This document shows, piece by piece, positions 16,352 to 39,439 of a DNA stretch of 41,248 nucleotides. The notes beneath the pieces were generated by a model. It ran no database searches and was not told the DNA's origin. It worked only from the letters and a program-made list of their open reading frames with translations. The stretch is from Nitrososphaerales archaeon (GTDB lineage Archaea > Thermoproteota > Nitrososphaeria > Nitrososphaerales > Gagatemarchaeaceae), in the NCBI GenBank assembly GCA_030038365.1, contig JASHPA010000015.1, positions 1 to 41,248 on the forward strand, read 5' to 3'. The position numbers and the translations under genes are program-made. How positions within the stretch are numbered: the first letter of the stretch is position 1; each line of letters opens with the position of its first letter.

Positions 16352-17235
16352 TCCGAAACCTCCTTCACTGTCTTCTCCATCGTGTAACTTGGGACGTACG
16401 AGATTTTCTTCCAGAACGCCTGTTCGCCGATGGTCCTGCCTGCCTTTATCTGATCCGCCGCGTACTGCCGGATGAGCGTCTTTCCCGACAGGAGCCCGCT
16501 CGACTTCACATCCGCCTTCTTGCCGGTCGCTTCAGACAGTTTCTTCGAGAGACTCTCTATACTCGCGTCGAAGGACTTCACAAGGAACTCCTCCCACTGT
16601 CCTTCATAGGTGGCGGCCCTGAGCATCGACTGTGCTATGTCCTTCGGATGGCTCAGAGAAATGACGTTCGTCGAACCGGGTGGGAGTACCACTCTGCCGT
16701 CCTCGACCATCTTAAGCAATGGCAACGTTATTCCCTTGTCTCTCGGACCGACTGCTCTCGCTGACCTCACCACCCGTACCTTCATGTCGGGATGGTTCGT
16801 GCCGAAATCGGTGACGAACTGCTCGGCCGCCAGCTTTCCTTTCTGGTATTCATCTATCGGCCTCGGGGTGGAGTTCGGTCCTATCGCGCCCCCGAACCCG
16901 TAAACGTCAAGACAGCTCAGATGCACGAACACCTTCGCCCCGTGCTCGTTCGCCTCCTCCAAGAGGTTGTTGAGCGCGACCGCGTTGAACTTGGTGTAGT
17001 CACCGCTGCCTGGCGTGGGAAACGCCAGATTGTACACTACATCAACCATGTCCAGTGGTTCGTGAAGACTGTGACGGTCCATCAGGTCCGCCTCGATACA
17101 CTGCACACCGCACTGATCCATGACCCTGAGAAAGGACCCTTTCCTGAATATACCCTTGGATATCTCCCCCTCTTTGAAGAAGTACTCCGCAAGATGTCCA
17201 CCGACGAGTCCGGTTCCACCGACGATGAGGTTCGT
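16309..17235 (-). CDS. NAD(P)-dependent epimerase/dehydratase; true N-terminus likely at ACG 17235
   Basis: Rossmann motif NLIVGGTGLVGGHL is encoded upstream of the first ATG (17121); YQKGKLAAE downstream. Confidence 0.82.
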   Translation of the reverse strand, partial: TNLIVGGTGLVGGHLAEYFFKEGEISKGIFRKGSFLRVMDQCGVQCIEADLMDRHSLHEPLDMVDVVYNLAFPTPGSGDYTKFNAVALNNLLEEANEHGAKVFVHLSCLDVYGFGGAIGPNSTPRPIDEYQKGKLAAEQFVTDFGTNHPDMKVRVVRSARAVGPRDKGITLPLLKMVEDGRVVLPPGSTNVISLSHPKDIAQSMLRAATYEGQWEEFLVKSFDASIESLSKKLSEATGKKADVKSSGLLSGKTLIRQYAADQIKAGRTIGEQAFWKKISYVPSYTMEKTVKEVSEWYRKEPWATKDLA

Positions 17236-17561
17236 TATCTCGTCTCTCCGAGATGCTGATGTTCGTGGGCCTTGGCGCTCTTCGGGTCGACGTCGAAGTC
17301 GCCCTCCACCAGTCTGAGCTGGAGGTCCTCCTCGAAGGCTGCAAGGTCGCCGAAGATCCCCTTCAACTTCTTCCTGGCGGTGGGCGACAGCTTAGGGGCC
17401 ACGTTCTGGCCGCCATACCTGCCATAGGCTATGGCAGTGAACTTCACCTTTTCGGCGCCAACAAGAATCTGGCCTCTGATTATGTTGGCGATATCGCCTC
17501 CGCTGACATCATCGATCACAATCTGATACTCTCGAAGGTCGCTCTTCCGCTCAGGCCTCAC
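17235..17561 (-). CDS. Hypothetical protein
   Basis: 108-aa ORF, GTG start; its TAA overlaps the candidate ACG start of the epimerase. Confidence 0.6.
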   Translation of the reverse strand: MRPERKSDLREYQIVIDDVSGGDIANIIRGQILVGAEKVKFTAIAYGRYGGQNVAPKLSPTARKKLKGIFGDLAAFEEDLQLRLVEGDFDVDPKSAKAHEHQHLGETR

Positions 17562-17601
17562 GATGTGCGCACCTTCCCTTGGAAGTATATGAACGATGGG
17601 A

Positions 17602-18081
17602 CTATTCGGTCAGCAACGGATACCTAAAGTCCTCCTTGTACGTGTTGAGGACAAGATGGGTATTCGTACGTTCTACGTACGGGACGGAGAGTAACTCCTT
17701 CGTGAACTTGCTCACTTCATCCCGGTTCTTGAACTTCGATATCACGATGCTGTCCTCGATTCCTGTCACATCATAGACTGCGCAAACCGAGTTCAGCTTA
17801 GCGATTTTTTCCTGCACCTCCACAAGCTTCCCCTTCGAGACTGTGACCTCCGTTATCGTGGTGATCTCGTAGCCGAGCATCTCTTGATTGAGGATCCCGG
17901 CATATCCTTTGATAATGCCATCGTGTTCCATCTTTCTCACCCTCTGTGCCACGGTCACGACCGAGACACCGGTCTTTTTGGCGAGCTCCCGATAGGATTG
18001 GCGCGCGTCGCCCTCCAGCTCCTTCAGAAGCGACCTGTCAAGGTTGTCCATTTTCATCTGTGAACGGTTAACTCCCGACAT
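17602..18081 (-). CDS. Lrp/AsnC-family transcriptional regulator
   Basis: LDRSLLKELEGDARQSYRELAKKTGVSVVTVAQRVRKMEHDGIIKGYAG. Confidence 0.93.
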   Translation of the reverse strand: MSGVNRSQMKMDNLDRSLLKELEGDARQSYRELAKKTGVSVVTVAQRVRKMEHDGIIKGYAGILNQEMLGYEITTITEVTVSKGKLVEVQEKIAKLNSVCAVYDVTGIEDSIVISKFKNRDEVSKFTKELLSVPYVERTNTHLVLNTYKEDFRYPLLTE

Positions 18082-18113
18082 CTAGCATTTGATAAGCGTT
18101 GTTATTACTTCAA

Positions 18114-18135
18114 TTAGCAATTGTCAAATTGCTTG
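18114..18135. promoter_or_regulatory. Candidate operator TTAGCAAT-N6-ATTGCTTG directly upstream of glnA TATA box
   Basis: Inverted repeat with the same GCAAT/ATTGC cores as at 2661-2685; TATA-like tttataa begins about 28-30 nt before the ATG. Confidence 0.5.
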
Positions 18136-18171
18136 GCAAGATTTATAACCGGTAGTAATTGACGCGTTTCG

Positions 18172-19635
18172 ATGCCTTTCGATAAGACACCAAAGGGATT
18201 GGTCCCACGGAAGCGGACACCTAAGCAAGTTGTCGACGAGGTGGCTTCCAAGGGTATCCGTTTCATAGACCTGCAGTTTACAGACGTGCCCGGCCGCTCC
18301 CAGCATGTCACGATTCCATACAACATGCTCGACGTCGAGACGTTCAAGGAAGGGGTTCCCAAACTCGACGGGTCCTCCATCAAGGGGTTCGCTTACATAT
18401 TCGATTCTGACATGCTCCTGCTTCCCGACCCTTCGACGTTCGCCGTTATTCCATGGGGCGATCAACGTTTCCCTACAGCCAGGATGATTTGTGATGTCCA
18501 CTGGGGCTACGAGAAGGGCCGCTTCTCGAGAGACCCGCGGTACGTGGCACAGAAAGCCGAGGCCGCCGTAAGAGCCGCTGGCTTCACCGAATCCTACTGG
18601 GGACCCGAGATGGAATTCTTCGTCTTCGACTCGGTCACCTGGGATATCGCAAGCCCGTTCGGAAGTAGTCACAAAATTACATCAATCGAGTCCGCTCACG
18701 AAGCGAGGGGCACCAACTTTCCCATCAGGTTCAAAGAGGGTTACTACCCCACACCGCCTAGTGATACCCTGCAGGACTACAGAAGCGAAGTAGCGTATCA
18801 CCTAGACGAGTCGTTCGGTGTCATCAACGACGCGCACCATCACGAGGTCGCGACGGCAGGGCAGTGCGAAATCAACCTCTACAGGGACACCCTGACGCCG
18901 GGCGCTGACAGCATTCTCACGTACAAGTACGTCATCAAGAACGTAGCAGCCAACAGGGGACTAATAGCGACAGTAATGCCAAAGCCAATCTTCGGAGACA
19001 ACGCCTCTGGTATGCACGTGTCCTCCAGCCTCTGGAAGGGAGACAGGAACTCGTTCTACGACGAGAGTGACGAGTATGCCAACCTGAGCCAAATTGGACG
19101 CTACTACATCGGAGGACTTCTCGAACACAGCAGGGCGATCTGCGCTATAACCAACCCCACGACCAACTCGTATAGAAGGCTCGTCCCAGGTTACGAGGCC
19201 CCGGTCTTCGTCGCCTGGAGCAGAGGAAACAGGTCAGCCAACATCAGGATTCCGCTGCACTACAAGGGCAAGTCTGGCATGAAGGGCAAGAGGGCAGAGT
19301 TCAGGACCCCCGACCCTTCGGCCAACACCTATCTCGCGTTTGCAGCCATAGTCTCGGCCGGACTCGACGGCATCAAGAAGAAGATCGATCCCGGAGACCC
19401 AGTCAACGAAGACATCTACGAGCTGACCCCGCAGAAAAGGAAGCAGCTCGGTGTCAGAGAGTTACCCAGGAGTCTCATGGAGTCGATAGACTCGTTGAAG
19501 AGCGACTCCAGCTTCCTGAAGGGAGTCTTCTCGGACGACCTCATCGACACGATAATCGACCTGGAGACACAGAACTATAACGCCGTAGCCGCGAGACCAA
19601 CGCCTTACGAGTTCTACCTCTACTTCGACATATGA
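18172..19635 (+). CDS. glnA: Glutamine synthetase
   Basis: DGSSIKGF, GPEMEFFVFD, NDAHHHEVATAGQCEI, KPIFGDNASGMHVSSSLWK, NPTTNSYRRLVPGYEAPVF. Confidence 0.97.
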   Translation: MPFDKTPKGLVPRKRTPKQVVDEVASKGIRFIDLQFTDVPGRSQHVTIPYNMLDVETFKEGVPKLDGSSIKGFAYIFDSDMLLLPDPSTFAVIPWGDQRFPTARMICDVHWGYEKGRFSRDPRYVAQKAEAAVRAAGFTESYWGPEMEFFVFDSVTWDIASPFGSSHKITSIESAHEARGTNFPIRFKEGYYPTPPSDTLQDYRSEVAYHLDESFGVINDAHHHEVATAGQCEINLYRDTLTPGADSILTYKYVIKNVAANRGLIATVMPKPIFGDNASGMHVSSSLWKGDRNSFYDESDEYANLSQIGRYYIGGLLEHSRAICAITNPTTNSYRRLVPGYEAPVFVAWSRGNRSANIRIPLHYKGKSGMKGKRAEFRTPDPSANTYLAFAAIVSAGLDGIKKKIDPGDPVNEDIYELTPQKRKQLGVRELPRSLMESIDSLKSDSSFLKGVFSDDLIDTIIDLETQNYNAVAARPTPYEFYLYFDI

Positions 19636-19713
19636 AGAGTCGCCAAGCGGCATGAGATGGATGGGTTACCGACCGAGTTCGAGTCTGCGCGGCCGTTCAC
19701 AAAAACGGTCAGG

Positions 19714-20652
19714 TTACTCGAAGGCCGGGAGAACTTCTTTCGCGAGTATTTCGAGCTGTTCGGCATAGTTACCTATGGGCCAGAGGTGGATGCGATGGGC
19801 CCCAGCCTCGGAGAATTTTCGCAGTCTCTCAATGCACTCCTTTGAGTCGCCAAAAGGAAGCGCTTTCTCGAGTTCCTCGGGCGGCCTTCCTAGTGTGGGA
19901 GCTAGTGTCTCTCTGATCATCCTGAGGGCTCTTTGCTTGTCGGAAGTTATGTAGCAAAACATGGTCATGACCGATATCTCGAATCCAGCTCGACCCCGCC
20001 CGCTTTCTTCCTTGTATGATAGCAGTATATCGGATTTCTCCTTGAGGTCATTCGGCGTGGCGTTGTACGCCGAGGCCATCCAGCCATCCCCAAACTTCGC
20101 GATTATCCTGAGGATTTGCTCGGACCCCCAACTTCCCACCATCAGAGGGGGGTGAGGCTTCTGGAGGGGTATAGGTGTCACTGGGATGTTCTCGATTTTA
20201 TAGAATCTTCCCCGATAGTCTATCGAATCCTTACCCCAGAATCTAGAGAGGATCTCGGTACTTTCTCGAAATCTCCCCCAGCGTTCCTCGAAAGGGACTC
20301 CTGCAGCTAGATAGTCGCCTTTGTGGGAACCGGGTCCGATTCCTGCGATTAACCTGCCCGACGAGAGTATGTCTATAGATGAAAGAGCCTTCATGCTTAC
20401 GATGGGATTTCTTACGACAACGTTGAGAATTGAGGTTGCAATCCTGATTCTGTCGGTAACAGCCGCGACGGCGGCCAGTGTCTCGAGAGAGTCCAGCCAG
20501 CTTGTCCTATACGAGATGTGATCGTTGACCGATAGCGAATCGAACCCCAGTTTTTCTGCTAGTCTTGCGGACGACAGAATCTGTTCTCTTCCGAACTCTT
20601 GGTCCCCAATTCCCATCACCGGTGAGTGAACTCCAAGCAATAGCTTCCTCAT
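19714..20652 (-). CDS. LLM-class flavin/F420-dependent oxidoreductase
   Basis: GFDSLSVNDHI, RIRIATSIL, RLIAGIGPGSHKGDYLAAGVPFEERWGRFRE. Confidence 0.9.
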   Translation of the reverse strand: MRKLLLGVHSPVMGIGDQEFGREQILSSARLAEKLGFDSLSVNDHISYRTSWLDSLETLAAVAAVTDRIRIATSILNVVVRNPIVSMKALSSIDILSSGRLIAGIGPGSHKGDYLAAGVPFEERWGRFRESTEILSRFWGKDSIDYRGRFYKIENIPVTPIPLQKPHPPLMVGSWGSEQILRIIAKFGDGWMASAYNATPNDLKEKSDILLSYKEESGRGRAGFEISVMTMFCYITSDKQRALRMIRETLAPTLGRPPEELEKALPFGDSKECIERLRKFSEAGAHRIHLWPIGNYAEQLEILAKEVLPAFE

Positions 20653-20984
20653 GTTCCAGGCAGCAGTCAGTGATTGGCTCCAAATAGGTTTGGCAAAACC
20701 CGCCAGAATTCACGAGCCACGCCTAGTCATGCAAAAACACTCCTGACCTCGGATAGAGGTAGAACTTGAGTTCTATAGATACTTCGATATCTAGTCAAAT
20801 GTCATCAGATAAGTGGAACTCTCCAAATCAACAAGACTGGCTGCAGCCGATTGCTCGGAGTCTCGTCCTTAATGGTTATCAGACCTGAGCCCGTGAAGCG
20901 TGAGAACGTTCAGACGCAAAAATCCAGCAGCCATTCCAGAAAATCCGAACACGCGGTTCACGATGCAGAACGCCTTCCGAATAG

Positions 20985-21030
20985 GATACCTAGTTAGTGA
21001 TAGGTATCGAAGCTTCGAACAGCGAAGCTT
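20985..21030. repeat. Two abutting perfect 8-bp inverted repeats downstream of the cyclase gene
   Basis: GATACCTA-N8-TAGGTATC (20985-21008) and AAGCTTCG-N5-CGAAGCTT (21010-21030). Confidence 0.7.
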
Positions 21031-21045
21031 GTCGCCCTATCCGGA

Positions 21046-22974
21046 CTAGTATGTGATATTCGCTCTCTTGAATATCTCTGGGAAACGAGAGTCGCTCCTT
21101 GCCTTTTCAAGCATGGGGTTGTATCTTAGAGCGGAGACCGCGAGTGTGTGGTCGTCAGCCGCCCTGAACATGTACTCGAAGAACTTGTCCATGTTTCCCA
21201 ATGCAAGGTAGATGTACCCCGCAGACGAGGATCGTGCCCATCCAGGGCTATGAGTGCTGTCCAACCTTCCTATCATTTCGTAGGCGGTCCTTGTGTCTCC
21301 CGTTAAAGCGGCGAAGAGGCCCCGATTGAGGTAAGTGAACTCCAGCGTCGGGCCAATCCGCTCGAGTTCCTTCAGAGCCTTCTCTGCTTCTTCATATTCT
21401 CTTCTGCTCGCATAATAGTCGAACATCACCCGATAGGTACCGTAACGGTTGAGGTGCATGGTTCTCTTCCAGTGGTTGAGGGCATCCTCATACCTACCGG
21501 CGTACAGGTAGGATATGCCTAGCAAACGGACGGTTGAAGGCGATAGAGGGTCAAGCTGATAGGCTCTCTCGGTCGCCTCCACCATTCCTTTGATGTCGCC
21601 AGCCACCCCGGCCTCCTGCGCCTCTGCAGATGCGGCCTCGGCCAGGTTGGGATTGAGTTCCAGAGCCCTCTTGAGCTCTGTTCGCCTCGCCTCTAGGCTT
21701 TCGTCGGCCATGAACATGATCTCCGCGAGCCTGCAGTGCGCTTCTGCCAGCTGCGGGTCGATCTCGAGTGCCCTCATCACCGCAGTCTTGGCTTTGTCGA
21801 TGGCTTCCTGCCACTGCATGTATCCATTGTTCCCGAGTCTATTGTAGCACCATGCTAGGCCGGCGTATGCCCTGGCAAACTCCCGATCCCTCATCACAGC
21901 CTGCTCGAAAAGAGCGAGGGCATGCCTTAGAGGCCCCTCCTCACTTTCGTTGACGAGTTGGCTCGCCTGCAGGAACTGAGTGTATGCGACGGTATCCTGA
22001 GTCTCTTTTTCTGTCTGCGCCGGGGCCCGAGGATGCAGGACTATCCCGGGTATCGATCCGGCGACCTTCTCTGCGATATCGCTCTGGACGGAGAAGATGT
22101 CGTCGAGGTCGCTGTCGTAGTTGCTAGAGAAGAGGTGCCCTTCGGTGTTGGCGTCTATTACTTGAACTGTGACCCTAATCTTGTTACCTGCCTTCCTGAC
22201 GCTCCCTTCCACAACCGTCCCAACGCTCAATTGCTTGGCAATCTCTGACACCATTTTGTCCTTCTTCTTGAAACTCATCACCGATGTCCGGGCGATGACC
22301 TCAAGTCCTCGTATGTGGGAAATCTTCCCAATCAGCTCCTCCGTGAGCCCGTCGGCGAAGAATTCATCGTTTGGATCGGGACTCATACTCACGAATGGTA
22401 GGACAGCAAGTCGCTCCCTCGGAGCTGTCGCCCTATGAGGCGCGGCTTCGTTCCAGGGCATCTCCATCTTGTACAGCTCCACCGGGGAAGACACATTCTT
22501 GAGCATACGTGAGCCGATGCTGGACAACTGGATGTCAAGCTTGTTGTAGACGTGGTCGTATACCTGCTTCGTGATGCAAACGCCTCCGTCCTCCGCCAGC
22601 GATTCTATCCTCGAGGCAACGTTCACTGCGTCCCCTGAAATGTCATTCTGGGACTCTTCGACTTCGCCTAGGTGAACTCCAATACGGAGATGAATCCTCT
22701 TTTCGGCGTCGAGCGAGACGTTAAACTCTCTTATCGCCCGCTGAATGTCATAGCTGCATCTGACGGCGTCAACGGCGTTAGGAAATTCTACCAAGAATGC
22801 ATCCCCAATTGTCTTCACCTCCCTACCGTTATGTCTCGATAGGACGGCCCTGACGACCTTCCTCTGCTCTTCGACAAGAGCCAATGAGAGGGATTCATTT
22901 CTCTGCCCCAAGGCAGTATAGCCGACCATATCGGTAAACATGATTGCTGCTAGCCTTCGCTGCTCTTGGGACAA
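21046..22974 (-). CDS. Class III adenylate/guanylate cyclase domain + TolB-like domain + TPR repeats
   Basis: FTDMVGYTALGQRN, VKTIGDAFLVEF, ISGDAVNVASRIESLA; FFADGLTEELIGKISHI; C-terminal TPRs. Confidence 0.92.
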   Translation of the reverse strand: MSQEQRRLAAIMFTDMVGYTALGQRNESLSLALVEEQRKVVRAVLSRHNGREVKTIGDAFLVEFPNAVDAVRCSYDIQRAIREFNVSLDAEKRIHLRIGVHLGEVEESQNDISGDAVNVASRIESLAEDGGVCITKQVYDHVYNKLDIQLSSIGSRMLKNVSSPVELYKMEMPWNEAAPHRATAPRERLAVLPFVSMSPDPNDEFFADGLTEELIGKISHIRGLEVIARTSVMSFKKKDKMVSEIAKQLSVGTVVEGSVRKAGNKIRVTVQVIDANTEGHLFSSNYDSDLDDIFSVQSDIAEKVAGSIPGIVLHPRAPAQTEKETQDTVAYTQFLQASQLVNESEEGPLRHALALFEQAVMRDREFARAYAGLAWCYNRLGNNGYMQWQEAIDKAKTAVMRALEIDPQLAEAHCRLAEIMFMADESLEARRTELKRALELNPNLAEAASAEAQEAGVAGDIKGMVEATERAYQLDPLSPSTVRLLGISYLYAGRYEDALNHWKRTMHLNRYGTYRVMFDYYASRREYEEAEKALKELERIGPTLEFTYLNRGLFAALTGDTRTAYEMIGRLDSTHSPGWARSSSAGYIYLALGNMDKFFEYMFRAADDHTLAVSALRYNPMLEKARSDSRFPEIFKRANITY

Positions 22975-23316
22975 GTTCTGCTGCGCAGATTCCGTGTTAA
23001 TTGGCGATAAATCCGTTATGGGGCGTTTGACAGTAGAGGAGTCGAATAAGAGCCGGGCAAGGATCTCTAGGTGAACGGACCAAAGGTTGCCAAGGAGACA
23101 TTCCGGATCAAGTTCAAGCTAGACAAGGTTCGCTCGGCTTGTTTCTTCGTGGGTCAGTAGGAACTCTGTTGTGTCGTCGGGGGATCAGCAGACGATATCT
23201 TGGTGCACGTAGGCCATCATTACGCTATGAGACATACGGTAGACCTCCGCGATGATGGAGATCTAGGCCTCTCAGCAGACAAACAGATATCTCCGTCTCG
23301 CTAGCCTCATAACCGC

Positions 23317-23793
23317 TTGATTCGCTGGCCGGAGAAGTACAGTCCTGAAAGGACGGCTGTCCACGCGCACAATGAGCTGGACATGCCTGTCACGCCCGAG
23401 CCCATCTGGGCCTGGCTAATCAGAGCCGACCTGTGGTCGACATGGTACAGCAACGCAAGGAATGTCGTTATTGCTGGAGGCAGGCACGAGCTTGGACCCG
23501 GAGTCACTTTCAGGTGGACGACCTTCGGAGCGTCTCTGAAGTCGAGGGTTGAGGAATTCGTGCCCTTCGAACGTCTTGCATGGACCGCCAAAGGTATGGG
23601 GATTGATGTCTACCACGCATGGCTGATTGAAAAGACTCCTTCGGGATGTCATGTGCTGACGGAGGAGAACCAGAACGGCATGCTGGCCCGGATGAGCGCA
23701 ACTTTGCGCCCCGGGAACATGGAAAGATATCACCAGGTGTGGCTGCAGAATCTGCTGGTGAAGGCGAAGCAAGGATATCCTCCACCTGCGTAG
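23317..23793 (+). CDS. SRPBCC-family protein
   Basis: PEPIWAWLIRADLWSTWYSNARNV...GVTFRWTTFGASLKSRVEEFVPFERLAW. Confidence 0.75.
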   Translation: MIRWPEKYSPERTAVHAHNELDMPVTPEPIWAWLIRADLWSTWYSNARNVVIAGGRHELGPGVTFRWTTFGASLKSRVEEFVPFERLAWTAKGMGIDVYHAWLIEKTPSGCHVLTEENQNGMLARMSATLRPGNMERYHQVWLQNLLVKAKQGYPPPA

Positions 23794-23858
23794 ATTGTTC
23801 GAGCAAGGTACCCGGTTATTTTCACCGGCTACCTAACATCAATTATGATGTCGATAAG

Positions 23859-23871
23859 CTATTATTAATAG
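23859..23871. promoter_or_regulatory. Candidate operator CTATTA-T-TAATAG upstream of znuABC-type operon
   Basis: Perfect 6-bp inverted repeat in an AT-rich promoter region with a TATA-like atatatttaata downstream. Confidence 0.4.
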
Positions 23872-23950
23872 TCAAGTGGCAATCACTCTTAGCTAATTTA
23901 ATAGTAATCCGAATATATTTAATAACCACAGCAGGAAAGGTCCTCCGGTC

Positions 23951-25123
23951 ATGCAAACATCCGGTCCGAAAAGGAGCAGATACGTGATTCCGGCTATAGT
24001 GGTGGTAGTGATTCTGGTTGTGGCTGCGGCGGCGGGGCTGTACCTTGCCATTCAGCATTCCCAGAGTTCTACGATGAGTATTGCGAGTACCACTTCTAGC
24101 TCGACGACGGGCACCTCCTCGGGGCCGATGATTAACATCGTCGCAGCCGAGAACTTCTGGGGCAGCTTGGTATCGCAGCTCGCAGGAACCCACGGCAACG
24201 TCACCAGCATAGTGTCGGACCCGAACACTGATCCTCACCAGTATGAGGCCAACGCAGCCGATGCGAAGGCAATCGCTAACGCACAGCTCGTAATCATCAA
24301 CGGGATGCAGTATGATACCTGGGCCTCACTGCTCATCAACGCCAGCGATACACCCGGCCAGATTGTGCTGGACGCTCAACAGGTAGTGGGCCTTCCAGAT
24401 ACCCCAGCAACCTATGCCAACATAAACCCGCACCTTTGGTACAGTCCCTGGTACGTGAACGACACCGTGCATGCGATGTACAATGCTCTCGTAAAGATCG
24501 ACCCGACGGACGAAGCGTACTTCAACGCTAACTATGTCAGCCTGAATTCGTCGCTGTACCAGACCTACATGAAGGTAGAAGATTCGATGAGGGTGCAGTA
24601 TGGTGGCTCATCTTCGACAGTCGTCCAGGACGTACTGCGACAGTATTCGGGCAATGTCACCATAGAAGCGACCGAGAGCATCGTCCAGTTCTTCGCCAAC
24701 GCGACGGGCCTGAACATAGCCACTCCTGTGAGTTTCATGTTCGCCGTCGCAGAGGGGAATGACCCTTCGCCCTCTGCCATCGCTACAATGGAACAGCAGC
24801 TCTCAGCCGGGAATCAGACGATCAGGTGCCTGGAGTACAACATCCAAACAGTGATGCCCATCACGCAGACGATAAAGCAGGTCGCTACCCAGTATCAGAT
24901 CCCGATCGCCGACGTCTCGGAGACCGTCCAACCACCGGGTCTCACATTCCAGGCCTGGCAAGGAGGCGAAGTGGCCCAGCTCCAAAACTGTCTTAACTCA
25001 ATCGCGCTAGGCAACCTGCCTGCGCATGTCGGAACAGCCTCGCCAGTCACCCAGACGACCAAGTCCGTCGGCTTCCAGTATCAGATCCCGATTGCCGAGC
25101 GATGGGCAACTCGCTCGCAATAG
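23951..25123 (+). CDS. Metal (Zn/Mn-type) ABC transporter substrate-binding protein
   Basis: N-terminal TM/lipoprotein-like segment, DPNTDPHQYEANAADAKAIANAQLVIINGMQYDTW, NPHLWYSPWYV. Confidence 0.9.
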   Translation: MQTSGPKRSRYVIPAIVVVVILVVAAAAGLYLAIQHSQSSTMSIASTTSSSTTGTSSGPMINIVAAENFWGSLVSQLAGTHGNVTSIVSDPNTDPHQYEANAADAKAIANAQLVIINGMQYDTWASLLINASDTPGQIVLDAQQVVGLPDTPATYANINPHLWYSPWYVNDTVHAMYNALVKIDPTDEAYFNANYVSLNSSLYQTYMKVEDSMRVQYGGSSSTVVQDVLRQYSGNVTIEATESIVQFFANATGLNIATPVSFMFAVAEGNDPSPSAIATMEQQLSAGNQTIRCLEYNIQTVMPITQTIKQVATQYQIPIADVSETVQPPGLTFQAWQGGEVAQLQNCLNSIALGNLPAHVGTASPVTQTTKSVGFQYQIPIAERWATRSQ

Positions 25124-25141
25124 CGCTAGGAAATCGGAACG

Positions 25142-26930: not shown

Positions 26931-27431
26931 TCAGGCGTGTCCGATTGACGAAGACCCGCTGAGGGCCGAACTGCGCGTCGCGATCCTGGCGCCGGTCTTT
27001 TCGCTTTGGACCAGGCCGGGAGCGAATGCCACCAGAGAGCTGACCAGCGTGTCGATGGTCAGCATGATCTCCCGATTCAGCAGAGAGCGGATAGTAATCT
27101 TGAGCTCCACCTGGCGCCCCGTTCCCTTGATCAGCAGACGCCCCCCGAAGAGCTCGGTCGGCTCGTCGAAGATTATCTTGACGACGTTCTCCTTCTGCAT
27201 CTCGAAGTCCTTGGTAGAGATTATCTTGTCGGCGACCCCGAGAGCCCTTGAGCGGTTTTCTTCGCTAGGCTCGGAGCCGGGTGAAATGTAGACCCAGAAA
27301 TCGTCGGGGTATTCGGGCCGGTAGGCGCCTACGATGCGGCTGTCGGTGATCAAAAGCGAGTATCCTTCACTGTCGTTTCTCCTTATGTCCCATGAGGATA
27401 CGATGCCTATCAGCCGCTCGCGGCGCAGCGT
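26931..27431 (-). CDS. Conserved-looking hypothetical protein; true N-terminus likely at ACG 27431
   Basis: Coherent N-terminal LRRERLIGIVSSWDIRRNDSEGYSLLITDSRIVGAYR lies upstream of the first TTG (27353). Confidence 0.6.
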   Translation of the reverse strand, partial: TLRRERLIGIVSSWDIRRNDSEGYSLLITDSRIVGAYRPEYPDDFWVYISPGSEPSEENRSRALGVADKIISTKDFEMQKENVVKIIFDEPTELFGGRLLIKGTGRQVELKITIRSLLNREIMLTIDTLVSSLVAFAPGLVQSEKTGARIATRSSALSGSSSIGHA

Positions 27432-27459
27432 GTTCTTCTCCCTCCACGCGCTGAAGCGG

Positions 27460-30328: not shown

Positions 30329-30372
30329 GCTGCTCAGGCCTCCAGCGTACTCGTTTTAAAAAGCTCAGTCCG

Positions 30373-30753
30373 TTAAGCGAGGACCTCTCTGTAGGACTGA
30401 GCGAACGGAGGGTCGATTACCCCGGAGACCAGCTTCTCGTTCCCCTGCGGATCTAGAATCGGCATCGCCGTCGCGTGATAGGGAAGGTCGAGCGCGTCGA
30501 GCCTCTCATCATCCTCTATCTCGGAGACCTTCCTCAGTCCTCCCTCTCCTGCCTCGAAGTGATAGACCTTGACGATCCGTCTTTCTCCGAAACCTCCTCC
30601 CCGTCCGCCAGCCGCCGTCGAGCCGTCCGGAAGCTGGAGCACGTAGATGTCGTTGGGCGAATCGGGGGTCCTGAGGTCGATCGGTTTGGAGGTGACGTAG
30701 ACCCTCCTCCCCTTCGAGTTCACCAGCTCAAGGAACTCTGACAGGCCATCCAT
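30373..30753 (-). CDS. Hypothetical protein
   Basis: 126-aa ORF; no family recognised. Confidence 0.6.
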   Translation of the reverse strand: MDGLSEFLELVNSKGRRVYVTSKPIDLRTPDSPNDIYVLQLPDGSTAAGGRGGGFGERRIVKVYHFEAGEGGLRKVSEIEDDERLDALDLPYHATAMPILDPQGNEKLVSGVIDPPFAQSYREVLA

Positions 30754-30792
30754 GGCCGCAGGCTCACGTTGCCACGTTTAAGGGTTGGAGGC

Positions 30793-31713
30793 CTATATCT
30801 GAAGGGCGGCCCTGAGGTTCTTGTAGCGATTCCGGATGGTGACCTCGGTCACGCCGGCCGCCTGGGCTATGTCCCTCTGGGTCTTCTCCTCTCCGGAGAG
30901 TGTGCTTGCCACGTACAACGCCGAGGCGGCGAGACCCACAGGGTCCTTACCTGCGGCGACCCCGCTCTGCCTCGCCCTGGCGATTATCTCCAGCGCTCTG
31001 CGCCTGGTCTTTTCTCCGGCCCCCACCTTCGACGCGATCTTAGCGACCGACTTGGCGGGGTCTGGGACGGGCATCTTGATGTCCATCTCGCGGATGAGCA
31101 GCCTGTATGACCTCGCGAGGTCCTTCTTCCCGATGTTCGCGACCTGGGCCACGTCCTTTAGGGTTCTCGGTATCTCGCTGTCTCTGCACGCTGCATAGAG
31201 CGATGCTGCGATCATCTCGGTGATTGACCTGCCCCTTATGAGCCCTCTCTCGAGCGCCTTCCTGTAGACATATGCGGCCCTCTCGATTATCTCATCGGAG
31301 AGCGACAGTTTGTCGGAAAAGGTCCTGAGCTGTACGAACGCGCGGCTGAGGTTCCTGTCGGACGACTCGTGGACCTGGCTCCTCCTGTCCCAAGTCCTCA
31401 GTCTGTCGACGGTGCTCCTCATGCTGCCAGAGATGGGCCTGCCGGTCGAGTCAGCGTTCCGTGTCCCTATCATGGTTGAAAGGCCCATGTCGTGGGCGGC
31501 GATCGAAGTCGGCAGCCCCGCCCTGCTTTCGTCCTTACCCTCCTCCCTCGAGGAGGACCTCCATTCGGGACCCGTATCCTCTATCTTCTCCTTGACCACG
31601 AACCCGCAGTTGCTGCAAACCAGCTCCCCTGTCTCAGAGTCCATGACCATCGGACCCTTCCCACAGCGCGGGCACTTGTCGAGGGCTCGCTGCAAGCGGA
31701 GCTGACGAGCCAT
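30793..31713 (-). CDS. tfb: Transcription initiation factor B (TFB/TFIIB)
   Basis: Zn ribbon CPRCGKGPMVMDSETGELVCSNCGFV plus two cyclin folds (SLYAACRDSEIPRTLKDVAQVANIGKK; VTEVTIRNRYKNL). Confidence 0.95.
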   Translation of the reverse strand: MARQLRLQRALDKCPRCGKGPMVMDSETGELVCSNCGFVVKEKIEDTGPEWRSSSREEGKDESRAGLPTSIAAHDMGLSTMIGTRNADSTGRPISGSMRSTVDRLRTWDRRSQVHESSDRNLSRAFVQLRTFSDKLSLSDEIIERAAYVYRKALERGLIRGRSITEMIAASLYAACRDSEIPRTLKDVAQVANIGKKDLARSYRLLIREMDIKMPVPDPAKSVAKIASKVGAGEKTRRRALEIIARARQSGVAAGKDPVGLAASALYVASTLSGEEKTQRDIAQAAGVTEVTIRNRYKNLRAALQI

Positions 31714-31771
31714 GTCTTTTTCAACCAACACAGAAAATCACATATGTAATAAGTTAAGGATATATTTATAC

Positions 31772-31796
31772 TTAGTAGTAGCATTAAACCTACTAA
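31772..31796. promoter_or_regulatory. Candidate palindromic operator TTAGTAG-N11-CTACTAA upstream of the tfb TATA box
   Basis: 7-bp inverted repeat; TATAAATATA-like element lies between it and tfb on the minus strand. Confidence 0.4.
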
Positions 31797-31866
31797 ATCA
31801 TCCTTACCTATCTTGGTCAACTGCCGCTGACCGGAATCTGGCGCGGCTTGCCTGCTCCCAGTCCGA

Positions 31867-33045
31867 CTAGTTGGCGAATTCTAGGGCCAGAGAGGCCAGC
31901 GAGAGGGTGCCGTACTTCAGCACGTCCTCGTCTACCTTGAACTTTGAGCTGTGGTTGGGACTGTCGCATCCCTTCGAGGTGTTGCCCGTCCCTAGGTAAT
32001 AGAACGTCCCCGGGGCCTTCTGCTGGAACCGGGAGAAGTCCTCCGCACCCATCCGAGGGTCGGCCCGTATCGTCTTCATGCGGGGTATCCTCCTGAGTGT
32101 CTTCGCGACCCTCTCTGTCACCTTCTCGTCGTTGTACACGACCGGGTACGTGTCCTTCTGGAAGTCGATTACACAGGATCCGCCATAGGCCTCGCAGGTC
32201 GAGGCCACGACACGCCTCATGTCGGCGATGGCCTTGCTCCTCGTGTTCTTCTCGAACGTCCGTATGGTTCCCTCGAGGACCACCTCGTCGGGGATGATGT
32301 TGTTCTTGGTACCGCCATGGACGCTGCACACGGAGATCACGAACGGCCTTATGGGGTTGACCATCCTCCCGGAGAGTCCCTGCAGCGCGATCGTCACCTG
32401 CGCCGCGATGTAGACGGGGTCGATTGCGCGATGCGGGGCTGAGCCGTGGCCACCCCTGCCGATCACCCGGATTTTGAAGGCGTCAGGTTTCGCCATGAAG
32501 GGTCCTCCTCTCACCCCGTACACTCCCGACGGCATGTCCGCCGCGATGTGAAGGCCGAAGACGTAGTCCACCCTTGGGTTCTCCATCGCGCCTTCATCGA
32601 TCATCGGCTTCGCTCCACCGTTGCCCCCGGATTCCTCCGCCGGCTGGAAGAGGAACTTCACGTCCCCTCCGAGCTGCTTCCTGTGCTTCGCCAGCAGGGC
32701 CGCGGCGCCCAGCAGCATCGCCACATGTGTGTCGTGGCCGCAGGCGTGCATCACGCCCTTCCTCTTTGACTTGAACTCGAGGTCGACCTCCTCCTGGAGC
32801 GGGAGCGCGTCCATGTCGGCCCTGAGTGCAACGACCTTTCCGTTCTTCCCCGACCTGAGGAGACCCACGACGCCCGTGCCACCGACACCTGTTTTCACTT
32901 CGATTCCCAGCGACCTGAGCTCCTTCGCTACCAGTCTGGCAGTCGCTACTTCATGATGAGCGAGTTCGGGGTTCTGGTGTATCGTCCTTCTGATCTCGAT
33001 TATCCTAGGCTCCAGCCTCTTGACCTCTTGGGCCAGATCTTGCAA
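31867..33045 (-). CDS. M20-family amidohydrolase/N-acyl-amino acid deacylase
   Basis: LRADMDALPLQEE, MHACGHDTHVAMLLGAAALL, MGAEDFSRFQQKAPGTFYYLGTGN. Confidence 0.93.
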   Translation of the reverse strand: MQDLAQEVKRLEPRIIEIRRTIHQNPELAHHEVATARLVAKELRSLGIEVKTGVGGTGVVGLLRSGKNGKVVALRADMDALPLQEEVDLEFKSKRKGVMHACGHDTHVAMLLGAAALLAKHRKQLGGDVKFLFQPAEESGGNGGAKPMIDEGAMENPRVDYVFGLHIAADMPSGVYGVRGGPFMAKPDAFKIRVIGRGGHGSAPHRAIDPVYIAAQVTIALQGLSGRMVNPIRPFVISVCSVHGGTKNNIIPDEVVLEGTIRTFEKNTRSKAIADMRRVVASTCEAYGGSCVIDFQKDTYPVVYNDEKVTERVAKTLRRIPRMKTIRADPRMGAEDFSRFQQKAPGTFYYLGTGNTSKGCDSPNHSSKFKVDEDVLKYGTLSLASLALEFAN

Positions 33046-33553
33046 CGGATGCTGTTCGGCCTATCGCAATAAATCCGTTTTGATGGTATGCTGGGTGACA
33101 TCCTAGACGCACGTTTGTTGTTTTTCTTTCATGGCGCCTAAATGTGTTATCTGCTTTGTACTCATGGATCAGCTAACGCAGACCGGGACCAAGCCTCCTC
33201 GTCCGGGTCGAAGAAGAACCATCCCTTCTGCGCTCAGAATCGAACTCTATGCGCGAGCCGAAGAACTTCGGAAGAAAGGACTAGTTCCGAATTGAAACCA
33301 CAGGACCCTACAGAAGCAAGAGCAAAGGTACAATCTTAACGAGAAGAGGGAAATCATACGTACGGCGTGCCGATTGCTACTCAATCCGCGTCGTCATGCG
33401 AGACGCAGCTCTGTTCTACGACCATGTTGGTCTGACAATTGAAAGGAAGAAGAGCCAGTCTGGAGCGGCACCTAGGCTACCGCAAAATCTAGCAGGAGTT
33501 TCAGATGCAGTGGGGGCGGCGGGAGTTTCACCCGCCTACGCATGCTACTCCCG

Positions 33554-33658
33554 CGCCGGGGGTAGGATTCGAACCCACGAGACCCGGATGGGTCACAGGC
33601 TCTCAAGGCCCGCGCATTACTGTGTAGGTCTTTTCCTAGACCACTCTGCTACCCCGGC
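33554..33658 (-). tRNA. tRNA-Ser(UGA), with apparent 19-nt D-loop insertion/intron (about 33618-33636)
   Basis: Acceptor GCCGGGG/CCCCGGC, anticodon arm CGGGC-CTTGAGA-GCCTG, long variable arm GACCC-ATCC-GGGTC, T arm GTGGG-TTCGAAT-CCTAC, discriminator G. Confidence 0.88.
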
Positions 33659-34217
33659 TTAGAGTTAGCTTCATTTGAATTGGCTTCTTATCTTTTGCCC
33701 AAAGCCTCGGCCTATCTGCCGCGGCAGAGTCTTCATCACCTCTTCGTGCACCCCTTCTTTTGTGCAATGGAAGCTTGTTCTTTCGAGGCTCGATAATTTC
33801 CAAGTGGAACAGCCAGGCCGACGCAAGGCTGCCGTCGAGGTCGAAATTTTCGTCCTCTTTTTCTCTCAAAATGCAGTCATAACCCGCTTCTTTATCTCGT
33901 AGCACCACCACTCCATGAATGTCCGGTCACCTTTCTGGCTTAGTACACTATCTTCTTGACTGTCGCTTTTCTCCTTTTCCTCCGAAACGGAGTCGAACCT
34001 TCTGTCCACCCAAACCTGTGAACAATTCAGCATCGGATAGGTCTCTTTCCATCGACTCGAGCCTCTTTTTCTTGTCGAGATGGAATCCAACTGTGAAAGA
34101 GACGCCTTCTTTGTGACGTACAATTGAATCAAGAAGATGTACTTAATCACCATATCACCGAAGTCGCTTTAGCCCCATGTCAATCGTTATTACCTGTGGG
34201 TCTGGTGCAGAAGTGAC

Positions 34218-35108
34218 TTGCCTCCCATAAAGAGGGTTAGCGTGTTGGGCGCCGGACTGATGGGTCACGGAATAGCCCAGGTCTCTGCACAGACTGCGGG
34301 CTACGAAGTAACTTTGCTAGACGTGAAACAGGAGTTCCTCGATCGAGGAATGACGATGATCAAGGACAGTCTTTCAAAGTTCGTTTCGAAGAAGACGATA
34401 ACCAAAGACGATGCCGAGTCAGCTCTTGCAAGGATTCACCCGACTCTCGACCTGAAAGAAGCTGTGGCAGGTTCGCAGCTCGTGATTGAGGCATCCACTG
34501 AGGACCCAAAGCTCAAACTTGACCTGTATCGAAGAGTAGCCGACTACGCGGGACCGGAGACGACACTAGCCTCCAACACGTCTTCGATTAGCATCACTTT
34601 GCTGGGAGGCGCTACCAAGAACCCTGCCAACGTCGTGGGCATGCACTTCTTCAACCCTCCCCAGCTGATGCCGCTCATCGAGATAACGCGAGGCCGGAGA
34701 ACCTCAGACTCTGCGGTCGCCGTAATCAAGGAGGCCGCATCGGCGATGAAGAAGGAGACTGTCCTCTGCAAGAAGGACTCTCCTGGGTTCATCGTCAACA
34801 GGATATTGGTGCCGGCGCTCAACGAGGCCGCGTTCCTTGTGGATGAGGGGGTCGCTGACCCGGAGGATATCGACAAGGCAATCATGCTAGGCCTAAGCTG
34901 GCCGATGGGTCCGCTGAAGCTCTTGGACTATGTCGGCCTGGACACGACCCTCAACATATCCCAGGTCTTCATGCAGGAGTTTCAAGACGACAAATATCGC
35001 CCATCGCTGCTGCTCAGGCAGATGGTCAGGGCCGGATTCCTGGGTAGGAAGTCTGGCAAGGGGTTCTACGAATGGCCCTCGCCCAGCACGGCTAAGACGA
35101 CAACTTAG
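34218..35108 (+). CDS. 3-hydroxyacyl-CoA dehydrogenase (start may lie slightly downstream)
   Basis: VSVLGAGLMGHGIAQVSA, ASNTSSISIT, GMHFFNPPQLMPLIEI, DSPGFIVNRILVPALNEA. Confidence 0.95.
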   Translation: MPPIKRVSVLGAGLMGHGIAQVSAQTAGYEVTLLDVKQEFLDRGMTMIKDSLSKFVSKKTITKDDAESALARIHPTLDLKEAVAGSQLVIEASTEDPKLKLDLYRRVADYAGPETTLASNTSSISITLLGGATKNPANVVGMHFFNPPQLMPLIEITRGRRTSDSAVAVIKEAASAMKKETVLCKKDSPGFIVNRILVPALNEAAFLVDEGVADPEDIDKAIMLGLSWPMGPLKLLDYVGLDTTLNISQVFMQEFQDDKYRPSLLLRQMVRAGFLGRKSGKGFYEWPSPSTAKTTT

Positions 35109-35493
35109 CGCGTATCTCGTCGGGCACCGGCATCGGTTTCCCGTCGCTGCCCACGACCACGTGGACCGTGTGGCCCCTGCAGAGAAGCTCCATCGACGGC
35201 AGCTTGTATACCTCGTTCTCGAATCGCATGCTCGTCTTACCTATCTTGGCAAGCCGCGTCCTGACGAGCAACTCGTCGTCGAAGCGCGCCGGGGCCAGAT
35301 AGTTGGCCTGCACCTCGATGACGGGGATGAAGATTCCCAGGTGCTCGATGTCCCTGTAGACTATGCCCTTGGAGCGTAGCAGCTCGACCCTGCCCGACTC
35401 GAACCACACGAGGAAGTTCGCGTAATAGACGACCCGCATCGTATCGGTGTCAGCGTACCTGACTCTCGTCAGAATTTCGTGCTCAACGACCAT
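35092..35493 (-). CDS. 4HBT-type acyl-CoA thioesterase (YbgC-like)
   Basis: TRVRYADTDTMRVVYYANFLVWFESGRVELLRSKG. Confidence 0.93.
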   Translation of the reverse strand: MVVEHEILTRVRYADTDTMRVVYYANFLVWFESGRVELLRSKGIVYRDIEHLGIFIPVIEVQANYLAPARFDDELLVRTRLAKIGKTSMRFENEVYKLPSMELLCRGHTVHVVVGSDGKPMPVPDEIRAKLSS

Positions 35494-35573
35494 GGCCGAC
35501 GCCGGACCTATCCCGCGCAGGCTCTTTTGCGTTCCCGACCCGGGAAAATCTTATCTCACGTCGGAAGAGGGAT

Positions 35574-36056
35574 GTGTGCCGGTTCATGGTCGTCTATAGA
35601 CGCGCGAACAGACAGTATGTCGCGATGTCGGAGAAAGAGGTTTGGGACTTCCTCGATTCCCGGAACAAGTTGTTCGTTGGCTTCACGAGGGAAGACGGCT
35701 TTCCCCATGTCTCTCCCCTCTGGTTCTGCATCGAAAACCGCCGAATCTACCTCAGGACCCACGACTATAAGACCAAGACGCGACTGGCGAAGACCGGCAA
35801 GGCTTGCTGCGTCATAGACGATGGGTTCCTGTACAGGGAACTGCGAGGAGTGATTGTCTGGGGCAAATCACGGGTGCTCACAGATGAGAAGACGATAGAA
35901 CGGGTCAACAAGAAGCTGGACAAAAAGTACGAGAAACAGCAGTGGAGCTCCGGCGAGATGCCTCCAGGTTGGGTGGCCGAAAGGAAGCGGGAGAAGCGCG
36001 CTTTCATCGAGATCATACCCGAGAGGATAGATTCCTGGGACAATAGCAAGGTCTAG
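35574..36056 (+). CDS. Pyridoxamine 5'-phosphate oxidase-like flavin-binding protein
   Basis: FVGFTREDGFPHVSPLWFCIENRRIYLRTHDYKTKTRLAKTGKACCVID. Confidence 0.8.
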   Translation: MCRFMVVYRRANRQYVAMSEKEVWDFLDSRNKLFVGFTREDGFPHVSPLWFCIENRRIYLRTHDYKTKTRLAKTGKACCVIDDGFLYRELRGVIVWGKSRVLTDEKTIERVNKKLDKKYEKQQWSSGEMPPGWVAERKREKRAFIEIIPERIDSWDNSKV

Positions 36057-36631
36057 CCAGTACGCCAGACCTCATCCTCGCTACCCTCTAGGACGTTCGT
36101 CTGCCTAGCCGCATTGAAGAGGTAGGTCGAGAGTCTGTTCAGGAAGGGCATCAGCTCCAGATTGACCTTCTCCGCGCGCGCGAGGGTCACCACGCTCCTT
36201 TCCGCCCTCCTGCAGACGGACCTCGCGAGGTGCAGATGGGCCGAGAGAGGGACCCCTCCCGGGAGTATGAAGCTGGTGAGACGTGGGAGTTTCTCCTGCA
36301 GGTCGTCGATCATCTGCTCGAGCTTCTTCGTGTCGTCGCTCCCTATCCTCGGTACTCTGTCAGGCTGTCCTTCCGTCAATTCCGACGCCAGGTCCGCACC
36401 CGCCACGAACAGCTTGCCCTGAATCCACTTTAGGTTCCTAGTGATCTCCTCGTGTTTGCTGACCGAGACAGCGACGCCGATGCAGCTGTTGAGCTCGTCG
36501 ATGTTGCCGTATGCCTCGACTCTGGGACTGTCCTTCTTCACGCGTTTCGAACCGTAAAGTCCGGTCTCTCCAGCATCTCCGCGTCTTGTGTACAAGGCTA
36601 GGTGAGCGACGAGAGCCTCATCAACATACAT
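36053..36631 (-). CDS. PduO-type cob(I)alamin adenosyltransferase
   Basis: LYTRRGDAGETGLYGSKRVKKDSPRVEAYGNIDELNSCIGVA, LPGGVPLSAHLHLARSVCRRAERSVV, LNRLSTYLFNAAR. Confidence 0.93.
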   Translation of the reverse strand: MYVDEALVAHLALYTRRGDAGETGLYGSKRVKKDSPRVEAYGNIDELNSCIGVAVSVSKHEEITRNLKWIQGKLFVAGADLASELTEGQPDRVPRIGSDDTKKLEQMIDDLQEKLPRLTSFILPGGVPLSAHLHLARSVCRRAERSVVTLARAEKVNLELMPFLNRLSTYLFNAARQTNVLEGSEDEVWRTG

Positions 36632-36782
36632 AAGCCGTTCGAAAATCCGATTTTGCTACAATAGAACGCTTTCGAGCCTTCGAGGAGGGCTGACGAAGCC
36701 GAAATGGGAATAAATTTGAACCAACCCGCTAAATTGTCTTCACCTGTCTTGCTAATAGATGTGGATGGTGTTTATCGCGTCT

Positions 36783-37460
36783 ATGCGATCAGAACTTATC
36801 CAGAACAGGGTGGGGCGTCCCGTAAAGGACGTCTACGGGCGGTACTGTGGTTCGGTGATTGGATTCTCGATAGATAGTTCCGGGGAGCTGAAGTCGATAG
36901 GACTCGATCAGTGCGAGGGCCGATTCCAGGAGTTCGCGAGCAATAGAATCATCTCTGACAAGGACGGGTTTATCATGATACCTGTCTGGAAGGTTGCAGC
37001 GGATGGGCTCGGCAGGGAAACCGAGACGGTTAGGAGGAGAGCGCAAGCGCTTGCCGACCTCGAGAAGGAGGGAGAGGTTCCCCAAGAGCTCCGCGAGGAA
37101 GTGCATAGTCAGTATGACGGCGAATTCAAGAGACTGAGGGAGTCATACGTTAACCTCGGGGCGGAGGTGCGTGGGCTCATCGAGGCCCTGGACCGTCAGG
37201 CCAGGTCACTCGACAGGTTCCTTCTGAACCTCAAAATCCAGTTCCGGTCAGGCGAGATCGATGACGGAACTTTCAAGGCCGAGGCGGAGTATTGCGCTAT
37301 GATCAAACAGAGGGACACGAAGGAGCGAGACGACATGAGGAGGCTCCTCACAACTGTGATTGACCCTGTGCTTACGGGCAACGTCGCCTCCGTAGTTGGG
37401 GGAGCACCCGTCGAGCAAAGAACCGTAGAGGTACCCGTTCCACAGGTCGCCTCGAGGTAA
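36783..37460 (+). CDS. cdvA: CdvA-like protein (PRC-barrel + coiled coil)
   Basis: N-terminal PRC-barrel-like NRVGRPVKDVYGRYCGSVIGFSIDSSGELKSIGLDQCEGRFQEF followed by helical region; resembles thaumarchaeal CdvA from memory. Confidence 0.7.
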   Translation: MRSELIQNRVGRPVKDVYGRYCGSVIGFSIDSSGELKSIGLDQCEGRFQEFASNRIISDKDGFIMIPVWKVAADGLGRETETVRRRAQALADLEKEGEVPQELREEVHSQYDGEFKRLRESYVNLGAEVRGLIEALDRQARSLDRFLLNLKIQFRSGEIDDGTFKAEAEYCAMIKQRDTKERDDMRRLLTTVIDPVLTGNVASVVGGAPVEQRTVEVPVPQVASR

Positions 37461-37550
37461 CCAAGCCGCTTTCGCCTCAGGGAGCACAGGCCGTCGTCGC
37501 AGAGAGGAAACGACGAAAACAAAGCGTAGGATGAGGTCGAGTACATCTTC

Positions 37551-38036
37551 TTGATTGTCTCTCTTCCGCTGATAGCGAAGAGCGTGAAAGTCAACCGGCT
37601 GAGGCTGGTCCTTGTCGCCTCCATCTCGCTCATCATCGTCACGAACGCGACCTTCATGATGGGGTTGATGAGTTCAGCGAGGATCCTAGTGACAGTCCTC
37701 GTTTTCCTGTTCACGTTCATCCCAATCTCACTTACCTTCCTCGAGACCGTATCACGGACCAACCAGAGCCTCTCGCTTTTCAGGAGTCTGGGCGCGAAGA
37801 AACGCACTGTCGTCGTATCACTTCTCATCAGTCTGGCCGCTGCAGGCGCCGCCGGAGCACTAATCGGCGCGTTGGCAGGTTCATTGTTGCTGGTCAGCGT
37901 CCAGGGAGCGGCATCGCTTCTGCATCCTTTCCCACAGCTCTTACTGCAAGCGGGATACGTCCTGGGGTCGTTCGGAGGAGGGATTGCGGCAGCGACAATC
38001 TTCTGGGTGTTGCTATCATGGAACAGGTCGGACTGA
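37551..38036 (+). CDS. Compact FtsX-like ABC permease, four predicted TM segments, no large extracellular domain
   Basis: LFRSLGAKKRTVVVSLLISLAAAGAAGALIGALAGS is the FtsX-domain coupling motif plus TM3; an in-frame stop immediately upstream excludes N-terminal extension. Confidence 0.75.
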   Translation: MIVSLPLIAKSVKVNRLRLVLVASISLIIVTNATFMMGLMSSARILVTVLVFLFTFIPISLTFLETVSRTNQSLSLFRSLGAKKRTVVVSLLISLAAAGAAGALIGALAGSLLLVSVQGAASLLHPFPQLLLQAGYVLGSFGGGIAAATIFWVLLSWNRSD

Positions 38037-38752
38037 CAAGAAGGCGAACCCAGGAAAGGGCTGCCGCATACGCCATAGAGCTGGTACACGTCAGGAAAGT
38101 CTACGGTCATAACTTCCAAACCCGCAAAGAAGTATTCCTTGACGTGAGTCTCCGCGCAGTTCCCGGAGAGTTTATCGCGATTTCCGGGCCCATCGGCTGC
38201 GGAAAAACTACGCTTGTCAACCTGATAGCTGGTCTCGACAGACCCAACACTGGTCTAATCAGGGTTCAGGGTGTCGAGACGACGAGACTCACAGATGATC
38301 AATTCGCAGAACTGAGATCCATGACAATCGGATTGGTCCCACAGGTCCAAAGTCTCTTGGACGACCTGACGGTCTTCGAGAACGTAGAGGTCCCTCTCTA
38401 CTTTCTGGCCCAAAGCAAACAGAAGCTCGACGGACGGTCCCGAAGGGACCGGGTAGAGGAGACGCTGAAGAGAATGGGGCTGCTCTCTGATGCCCGAAGG
38501 AAGGTAGGAGCGCTGAGCGTCGGCGAGAGGCAAATGATAGCGATTGCGAGGGCGCTCGTCACAGATCCTCCGATTCTGCTCATGGACGAGCCAACCGAAT
38601 CATTGGATCCGGTGATGTCCGATATGGTGCTGGAGCTGCTGAGAGGAGACAACATGACGAGAGGAAGAACTGTCGTCGTCACGTCGCACGACAAGAACCT
38701 CTCTAGCATGGCGAGTAGAACCATAAGGCTGAAGAAGCGCTTGGCGCCTTGA
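38018..38752 (+). CDS. FtsE/LolD-like ABC transporter ATPase
   Basis: Walker A GPIGCGKTT, signature LSVGERQMIAIARAL, Walker B ILLMDEPTESLD, H-loop TSHD; overlaps permease by 19 nt. Confidence 0.92.
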   Translation: MEQVGLTRRRTQERAAAYAIELVHVRKVYGHNFQTRKEVFLDVSLRAVPGEFIAISGPIGCGKTTLVNLIAGLDRPNTGLIRVQGVETTRLTDDQFAELRSMTIGLVPQVQSLLDDLTVFENVEVPLYFLAQSKQKLDGRSRRDRVEETLKRMGLLSDARRKVGALSVGERQMIAIARALVTDPPILLMDEPTESLDPVMSDMVLELLRGDNMTRGRTVVVTSHDKNLSSMASRTIRLKKRLAP

Positions 38753-39013
38753 ACTAAGGCGCCAACCAACATACAGAAGGAAGGGAGGGTACAGTCACGC
38801 GGTGGACACGGTACGTTCTGGCGCGATTGCTCTCAATTCTATAGTCATATCGCCACCACAAGAGCATTGGGCTCCCCGCAGGTGCCAGCTTTGATGAGAA
38901 GTGACATTCAAAAATTGTTATCAACATATTTAGGCTCGGAGGTCGCATATTTTCCCGACCCAACGCATATAATCTAATCTTTCGCAGACACAAGAGCTGG
39001 GTGCTTAGAAGCT

Positions 39014-39439
39014 ACGCCAAACGAGCTTTCTGGTGACGACATCACACACCTCTTCACGCCGCAGGAGGCCTCGAGGTTGCTGCCCGATGTCAAAATCAAA
39101 CTCAAGGAAATAATGGAGAGGAAGAAGGTGGCTGATATCCTGAAGAGCGACATCGAGCGCTATGCGCTGGTGGGCTTCGATACACCTGAGCTCACAGAAA
39201 AGAACCAGGAGCTGGAGACGGTGGTCAAGGATCTTATGTCCAGGGTGTCCGAGCTCGAGGACCTTGGTCTCAGGATACGCGACATCGACACAGGCCTCGT
39301 CGACTTCCCCGCGATGCGGTTCGGGACCACGGTCTTTCTATGCTGGCGGTATGGAGAATCTGCCATCGAATACTGGCACGCCTCAAATGAGGGCTTCAAC
39401 GGAAGGAAGTCGCTGAACGCCCAGATAATATCGCCGTAA
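39014..39439 (+). CDS. DUF2203-family protein; likely start at ACG 39014
   Basis: HLFTPQEASRLLPDV...LEDLGLRIRDIDTGLVDFPAMRFGTTVFLCWRYGESAIEYWHASNEGFNGRKSL. Confidence 0.82.
   Translation, partial: TPNELSGDDITHLFTPQEASRLLPDVKIKLKEIMERKKVADILKSDIERYALVGFDTPELTEKNQELETVVKDLMSRVSELEDLGLRIRDIDTGLVDFPAMRFGTTVFLCWRYGESAIEYWHASNEGFNGRKSLNAQIISP

Follow-up and report, generated by a model that had tools for sequence, protein, structure and literature searches.

Candidate ACG translation starts in the archaeal family Gagatemarchaeaceae, with an ACG apparently conserved in a DUF2203 gene

Three genes in a 41,248-nucleotide stretch of DNA from a member of the Gagatemarchaeaceae (Thaumarchaeota group I.1c) carry an ACG at what is probably the translation start, and one of them, encoding a DUF2203 protein, appears from orthologue alignments to begin with ACG in nearly the whole family. 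The stretch, hereafter the window, is the entire contig C67 of a 2.3-Mb draft metagenome-assembled genome (G000; 88% complete, 5% contamination). The reading proposed here, with a probability of roughly 0.75, is that the ACGs are genuine starts at which weak initiation by a CAU initiator tRNA is aided by Shine-Dalgarno (SD) motifs, and that in the DUF2203 gene the low output is kept.

The initial annotation, made from the letters of the window, had pointed to three ACG triplets, each in a frame closed further upstream and exactly 10 nt after an SD-like motif. The triplets were found in the contig sequence on the strands and at the spacing claimed, along with the features listed here.

16309..17235, minus strand: NAD-dependent epimerase gene, candidate start ACG at 17235-17233; Pfam Epimerase match (E=2e-21) from residue 3.
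17246..17249, minus strand: SD-like GGAG, 10 nt 5' of the epimerase ACG, as read in the sequence.
17235..17237, minus strand: TAA stop of the upstream open reading frame, overlapping the epimerase ACG by one base (TAACG).
26931..27431, minus strand: gene for a 166-residue protein, candidate start ACG at 27431-27429; ATG in the same column of G003 and G001.
27442..27445, minus strand: SD-like GGAG, 10 nt 5' of the ACG at 27431, as read in the sequence.
39014..39439 (coding 39014-39436), plus strand: DUF2203 gene, identified by its Pfam match, candidate start ACG at 39014-39016 in a column common to genera g1, g4 and g7.
39000..39003, plus strand: SD-like GGTG, 10 nt 5' of the DUF2203 ACG, as read in the sequence.
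38975..38977, plus strand: in-frame TAA closing the DUF2203 frame 5' of the ACG.
38966..38973, plus strand: TATA-like CATATAAT, read in the sequence and a putative promoter of the DUF2203 gene.

In-frame stops lie 53 (17235), 13 (27431) and 13 (39014) codons upstream of the ACGs with no ATG, GTG or TTG between, and at 17237-17233 the stop and the candidate start overlap as TAACG, both in agreement with the annotation. The first canonical codon downstream is ATG at codon 39 of the epimerase gene (17121), TTG at codon 27 of gene 27431 (27353) and TTG at codon 22 of the DUF2203 gene (39077).

The Pfam DUF2203 match (E=3e-32) covers residues 13-134, and since it begins at residue 13 a start upstream of the TTG at codon 22 is needed. 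In the predicted structure (mean pLDDT 87) residues 14-53 form the first strand and helix, and a start at one of the downstream codons would therefore cut into both this helix and the conserved FTPQEA; structure and PDB searches yielded no function for DUF2203. Matches to the protein included Candidatus Gagatemarchaeum stordalenia and other Thaumarchaeota genomes from soil and groundwater, and on these matches the source genome is assigned to the Gagatemarchaeaceae. Every g1 orthologue and every g7 genome that was read has ACG in the start column, as does G010; the column holds ATG in G011 and G012 and TTG in g2 genomes. In the outgroup Nitrosopumilaceae an ATG-encoded methionine stands immediately before the domain. 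A TAG stop directly precedes the ACG in G001 and G004 (TAG-ACG), and a stop lies two codons upstream of it in G017, G019, G027, G029 and G022. In G001 and G022 no ATG, GTG or TTG occurs for 48-60 codons past the conserved FTPQE. Several DUF2203 genes therefore have no usable canonical start in place of ACG; this is not true of every orthologue, and some carry GTG, TTG or ATG within the first 10 codons. A TATA-like block similar to that of the window was present at the equivalent place in G001, G003 and G005. The DUF2203 gene of G007 (G007:C4 143-546) is split into two frames, either by a draft error or by a real frameshift.

Codon usage at the start column was compared with that at the invariant threonine of FTPQE, 11 codons downstream, in 18 g7-like genomes. 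ACG filled the start column in 18/18 whereas the threonine was encoded by ACG in 6, ACC in 6, ACT in 5 and ACA in 1 (Fisher P=3e-5, a value that overstates independence because the rows are related). Since the nearby invariant threonine uses all four codons, it is ACG itself that appears to be conserved and not threonine. From species to species the gene keeps one rare codon at its candidate start although synonymous positions change.

The epimerase column holds TTG, ATG, GTG or CTG in nearly all orthologues, and ACG in the source genome and in G001 of the same genus. The codon before it is ATA in the source genome, AGA in G001 and ATG in g2 genomes. Gene 27431, for which no Pfam or NCBIfam match was found, has ATG in the same column of its orthologues in G003 and G001, at about 39-50% identity, and its ACG is present only in the source genome; it is the weakest of the three sites. 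The initial annotation had asked whether orthologues carry a canonical codon in the ACG column or start further downstream; among those sampled the column holds ATG, TTG or GTG in relatives, and downstream starts were not indicated.

In order to look beyond the window, reciprocal best hits were determined across about 2.2 Mb from six Gagatemarchaeaceae genomes. ATG occurred 196 times, TTG 147 times and GTG 62 times in 110 well-supported start columns; in the family TTG accounts for about 36% of starts, an unusually high share, and GTG for about 15%. In a second set from six genomes, 635 rows at 205 start columns were canonical. Ten of the non-canonical rows aligned well and contained nothing canonical between the column and the upstream stop; ACG stood in 5 of these 10, whereas it makes up 1.6% of codons in the background (P=3e-7). 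A lack of ACG enrichment, which would have spoken against the annotation, was not seen in this sample of one family. The six-genome rows are related and were selected partly by hand, so that independence is overestimated in the binomial and Fisher values. The remaining non-canonical rows mostly have an ATG, GTG or TTG nearby, a few codons off, and represent shifted starts. Codon counts by the conservation boundary alone, and codon enrichment around that boundary in closed genes, were dropped as too noisy. About eight further gene families carry ACG at an orthologue-supported start in the six genomes, the family names being a reading of their sequences.

MFS transporter: candidate ACG start in G017 and G019.
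YHS protein: candidate ACG start in G010 and G017.
carB: candidate ACG start in G017 and G019.
UspA: candidate ACG start in G010.
GlmU-like acyltransferase: candidate ACG start in G013 and G017.
Gene at G019 102933: candidate ACG start.
Gene at G020 64823: candidate ACG start, as TAG-ACG.
Gene at G017 50660: candidate ACG start.

These families, together with the conserved DUF2203 column and the canonical starts of the epimerase and 27431 orthologues, strongly support real ACG initiation, one of the options offered in the initial annotation.

Other unusual codons were encountered at apparent starts. CTG starts occur, for example in the DUF1028-like gene of G017. At the carB column where G017 and G019 carry ACG, G013 and G020 have TCG; the start is preceded by a GAGGTGA SD in G013 and G019 and by a like motif in G020. 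A small conserved protein of G010 (C1, minus strand, ORF index 16961) has TCG at its start where two relatives have ATG. In an RpoH-like gene, ATA was found in G013 (C1, about 159757) and G019 (C2, minus strand) at the apparent start, where G017 has TTG. The carB gene of G013 (G013:C1 103646-103731, L098) also contains, after about codon 24, a 22-nt insertion, AAGCTGGTAGAACCAGCCGCAA, that breaks the frame; its hairpin z is about -2.5, and the genome is a single contig. Protein matches suggest an identical break point in G025, G029 and G032, and a mini-intron or a programmed frameshift may account for the insertion.

The likelihood that an SD-like motif precedes an ACG by chance was evaluated with 405 orthologue-supported canonical genes of Gagatemarchaeaceae, which contain 124 in-frame ACGs upstream of the true start. 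A motif of the initial annotation stood exactly 10 nt before 0/124 of these and within 6-12 nt of 12/124. Because no control ACG matches, three ACGs so spaced in one 41-kb contig exceed chance. The constant spacing of 10 nt, which the annotation had pointed out, did not hold up: a motif lies exactly 10 nt before only 15/405 true starts and SD-to-start spacing in the family is broad (about 7-14 nt), hence a constant 10-nt spacing is no property of the genome. Histograms of SD spacing over all in-frame codons gave no signal. An SD-like motif was found far more often at ACG than at ordinary starts, at 10/11 ACG families versus 36% of canonical starts (P=3e-4) and, with the three window sites picked in the annotation left out, at 7/8 (P=0.004).

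The annotation had also considered population or assembly variants, by which the true base would be T. The draft state of the source genome and the confinement of the 27431 ACG to it are consistent with such a variant, which is possible for that gene. The DUF2203 ACG, however, is found in numerous assemblies that were produced independently and stem from different projects and sites, including a single-contig genome, and this recurrence excludes assembly error there; for the epimerase gene, with its ACG repeated in G001, a variant is unlikely. As an account of the ACGs in general it is the least probable of those weighed here. Somewhat less improbable, yet still quite unlikely, is that translation starts elsewhere, at a downstream canonical codon or a near-cognate such as ATA, with ACG merely the next codon. 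The ATA and ATG that precede the epimerase ACG in the source genome and g2, and the early canonical codons of some DUF2203 genes, fit this explanation, and for the source genome alone an epimerase start at the ATA is conceivable. The AGA-ACG of G001 argues against it, as does the DUF2203 alignment, in which ACG is the sole near-cognate common to one column, the preceding codons vary and include stops, and downstream starts would remove the onset of the first helix together with the invariant or nearly invariant residues F14-A19.

C-to-U editing, a process known from some plastid genes, would turn the ACG of the DNA into AUG in the mRNA ahead of translation; it has the attraction that a single such change turns ACG, the TCG of carB in G013 and G020, and CTG into AUG or UUG. 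The ATA at the RpoH column is beyond this repair, and at 19 ACG sites no context is shared from -4 to -1 (base -1 is G in 7, C in 5, A in 4 and T in 3); the lack of a common context in this span would argue against site-specific editing, and editing is considered very unlikely, between the two preceding explanations in probability. A search of 61 genomes for DYW-type deaminases returned no match, a result that is uninformative since the controls were equally without match. A broader proposal holds that the starts form an extended NCG set, comprising ACG and the TCG of carB in G013 and G020, that is served by editing or by special decoding through a modified initiator anticodon or 30S site, with the DUF2203 ACG acting in an initiation-stringency circuit. 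It too is doubtful, although less so than the three other explanations.

Direct weak initiation is tentatively favoured over editing because the initiator tRNA has a CAU anticodon and no common sequence from -4 to -1 precedes the ACGs. This anticodon was found in G000, G001, G003, G010, G012, G025 and others, most g7 genomes lying outside the search pattern, and with it ACG would be read with one mismatch. An altered initiator tRNA (e.g. CGU) was looked for and not found, the anticodon being CAU in the genomes matched by the pattern. The idea that start selection is relaxed because aIF1 has been lost was rejected, aIF1 being present in 56/61 genomes; its gene apparently begins with a normal GTG in the three genomes read. 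A pattern search for the 16S 3' end gave three scattered matches only. The initiator tRNA genes (L256-L277, e.g. L263) contain intron-like insertions at more than one position, in the anticodon loop in some genomes and also further 3'.

In the proposed mechanism the 30S subunit and the ordinary CAU initiator tRNA would accept ACG despite a mismatched A-C pair in the middle of the codon, methionine presumably being inserted, while the SD motif would hold the mRNA in place at the ACG. The high share of SD motifs at ACG starts fits strong mRNA placement that offsets a weak start codon. Initiation would be weaker than at AUG and would keep expression low. For most of the genes, ACG may be a tolerated T-to-C change from ATG or may have replaced a TTG or GTG ancestor. 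In the DUF2203 gene ACG would be maintained by selection throughout the family, its most likely role being that of a start with low output.

The start codon of E. coli infC is AUU. In Streptomyces the GTC start of sigR is repressed by IF3 (PMC5472188). Both are prokaryotic genes whose conserved start codon is weak and holds expression down, as is proposed for the DUF2203 gene, and by analogy with sigR the conserved ACG suggests that the weak start itself is kept by selection. The codon and gene differ; repression by an initiation factor belongs to the sigR case, and for the DUF2203 gene the likeness lies in the conserved ACG. The yeast ALA1 gene uses ACG as a natural start with ordinary translation machinery (PMC2909995), although in one gene and by eukaryotic scanning with no Shine-Dalgarno, as opposed to many genes of one archaeal family. 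Plastid genes with ACG at the start position that is edited to AUG are mentioned in another report (PMC9845219); a shared editing context was not found from -4 to -1 at the 19 Gagatemarchaeaceae ACGs. The exchange of ATG, GTG and TTG between relatives is like the start switching analysed by Belinky et al. 2017 (PMC5622118), in which only 2 CUG and 1 AUU arose from 61,358 ancestral AUGs, ACG is unmentioned and UUG is a small minority of prokaryotic starts, in contrast to the high TTG share and the apparent use of ACG in Gagatemarchaeaceae. Start codons are not discussed in the description of the family (PMC10640624). A literature search that had most subscription journals outside its reach gave no previous account of ACG starts conserved in archaea.

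Gene callers accept only ATG, GTG and TTG, and for this reason database entries for proteins of the Gagatemarchaeaceae, which are abundant in soil, are probably too short or begin at the wrong codon. Regulatory weak starts have so far been studied with infC and sigR in bacteria. An ACG kept across many species would offer a natural test of archaeal start-codon selection and of the regulatory use of weak starts.
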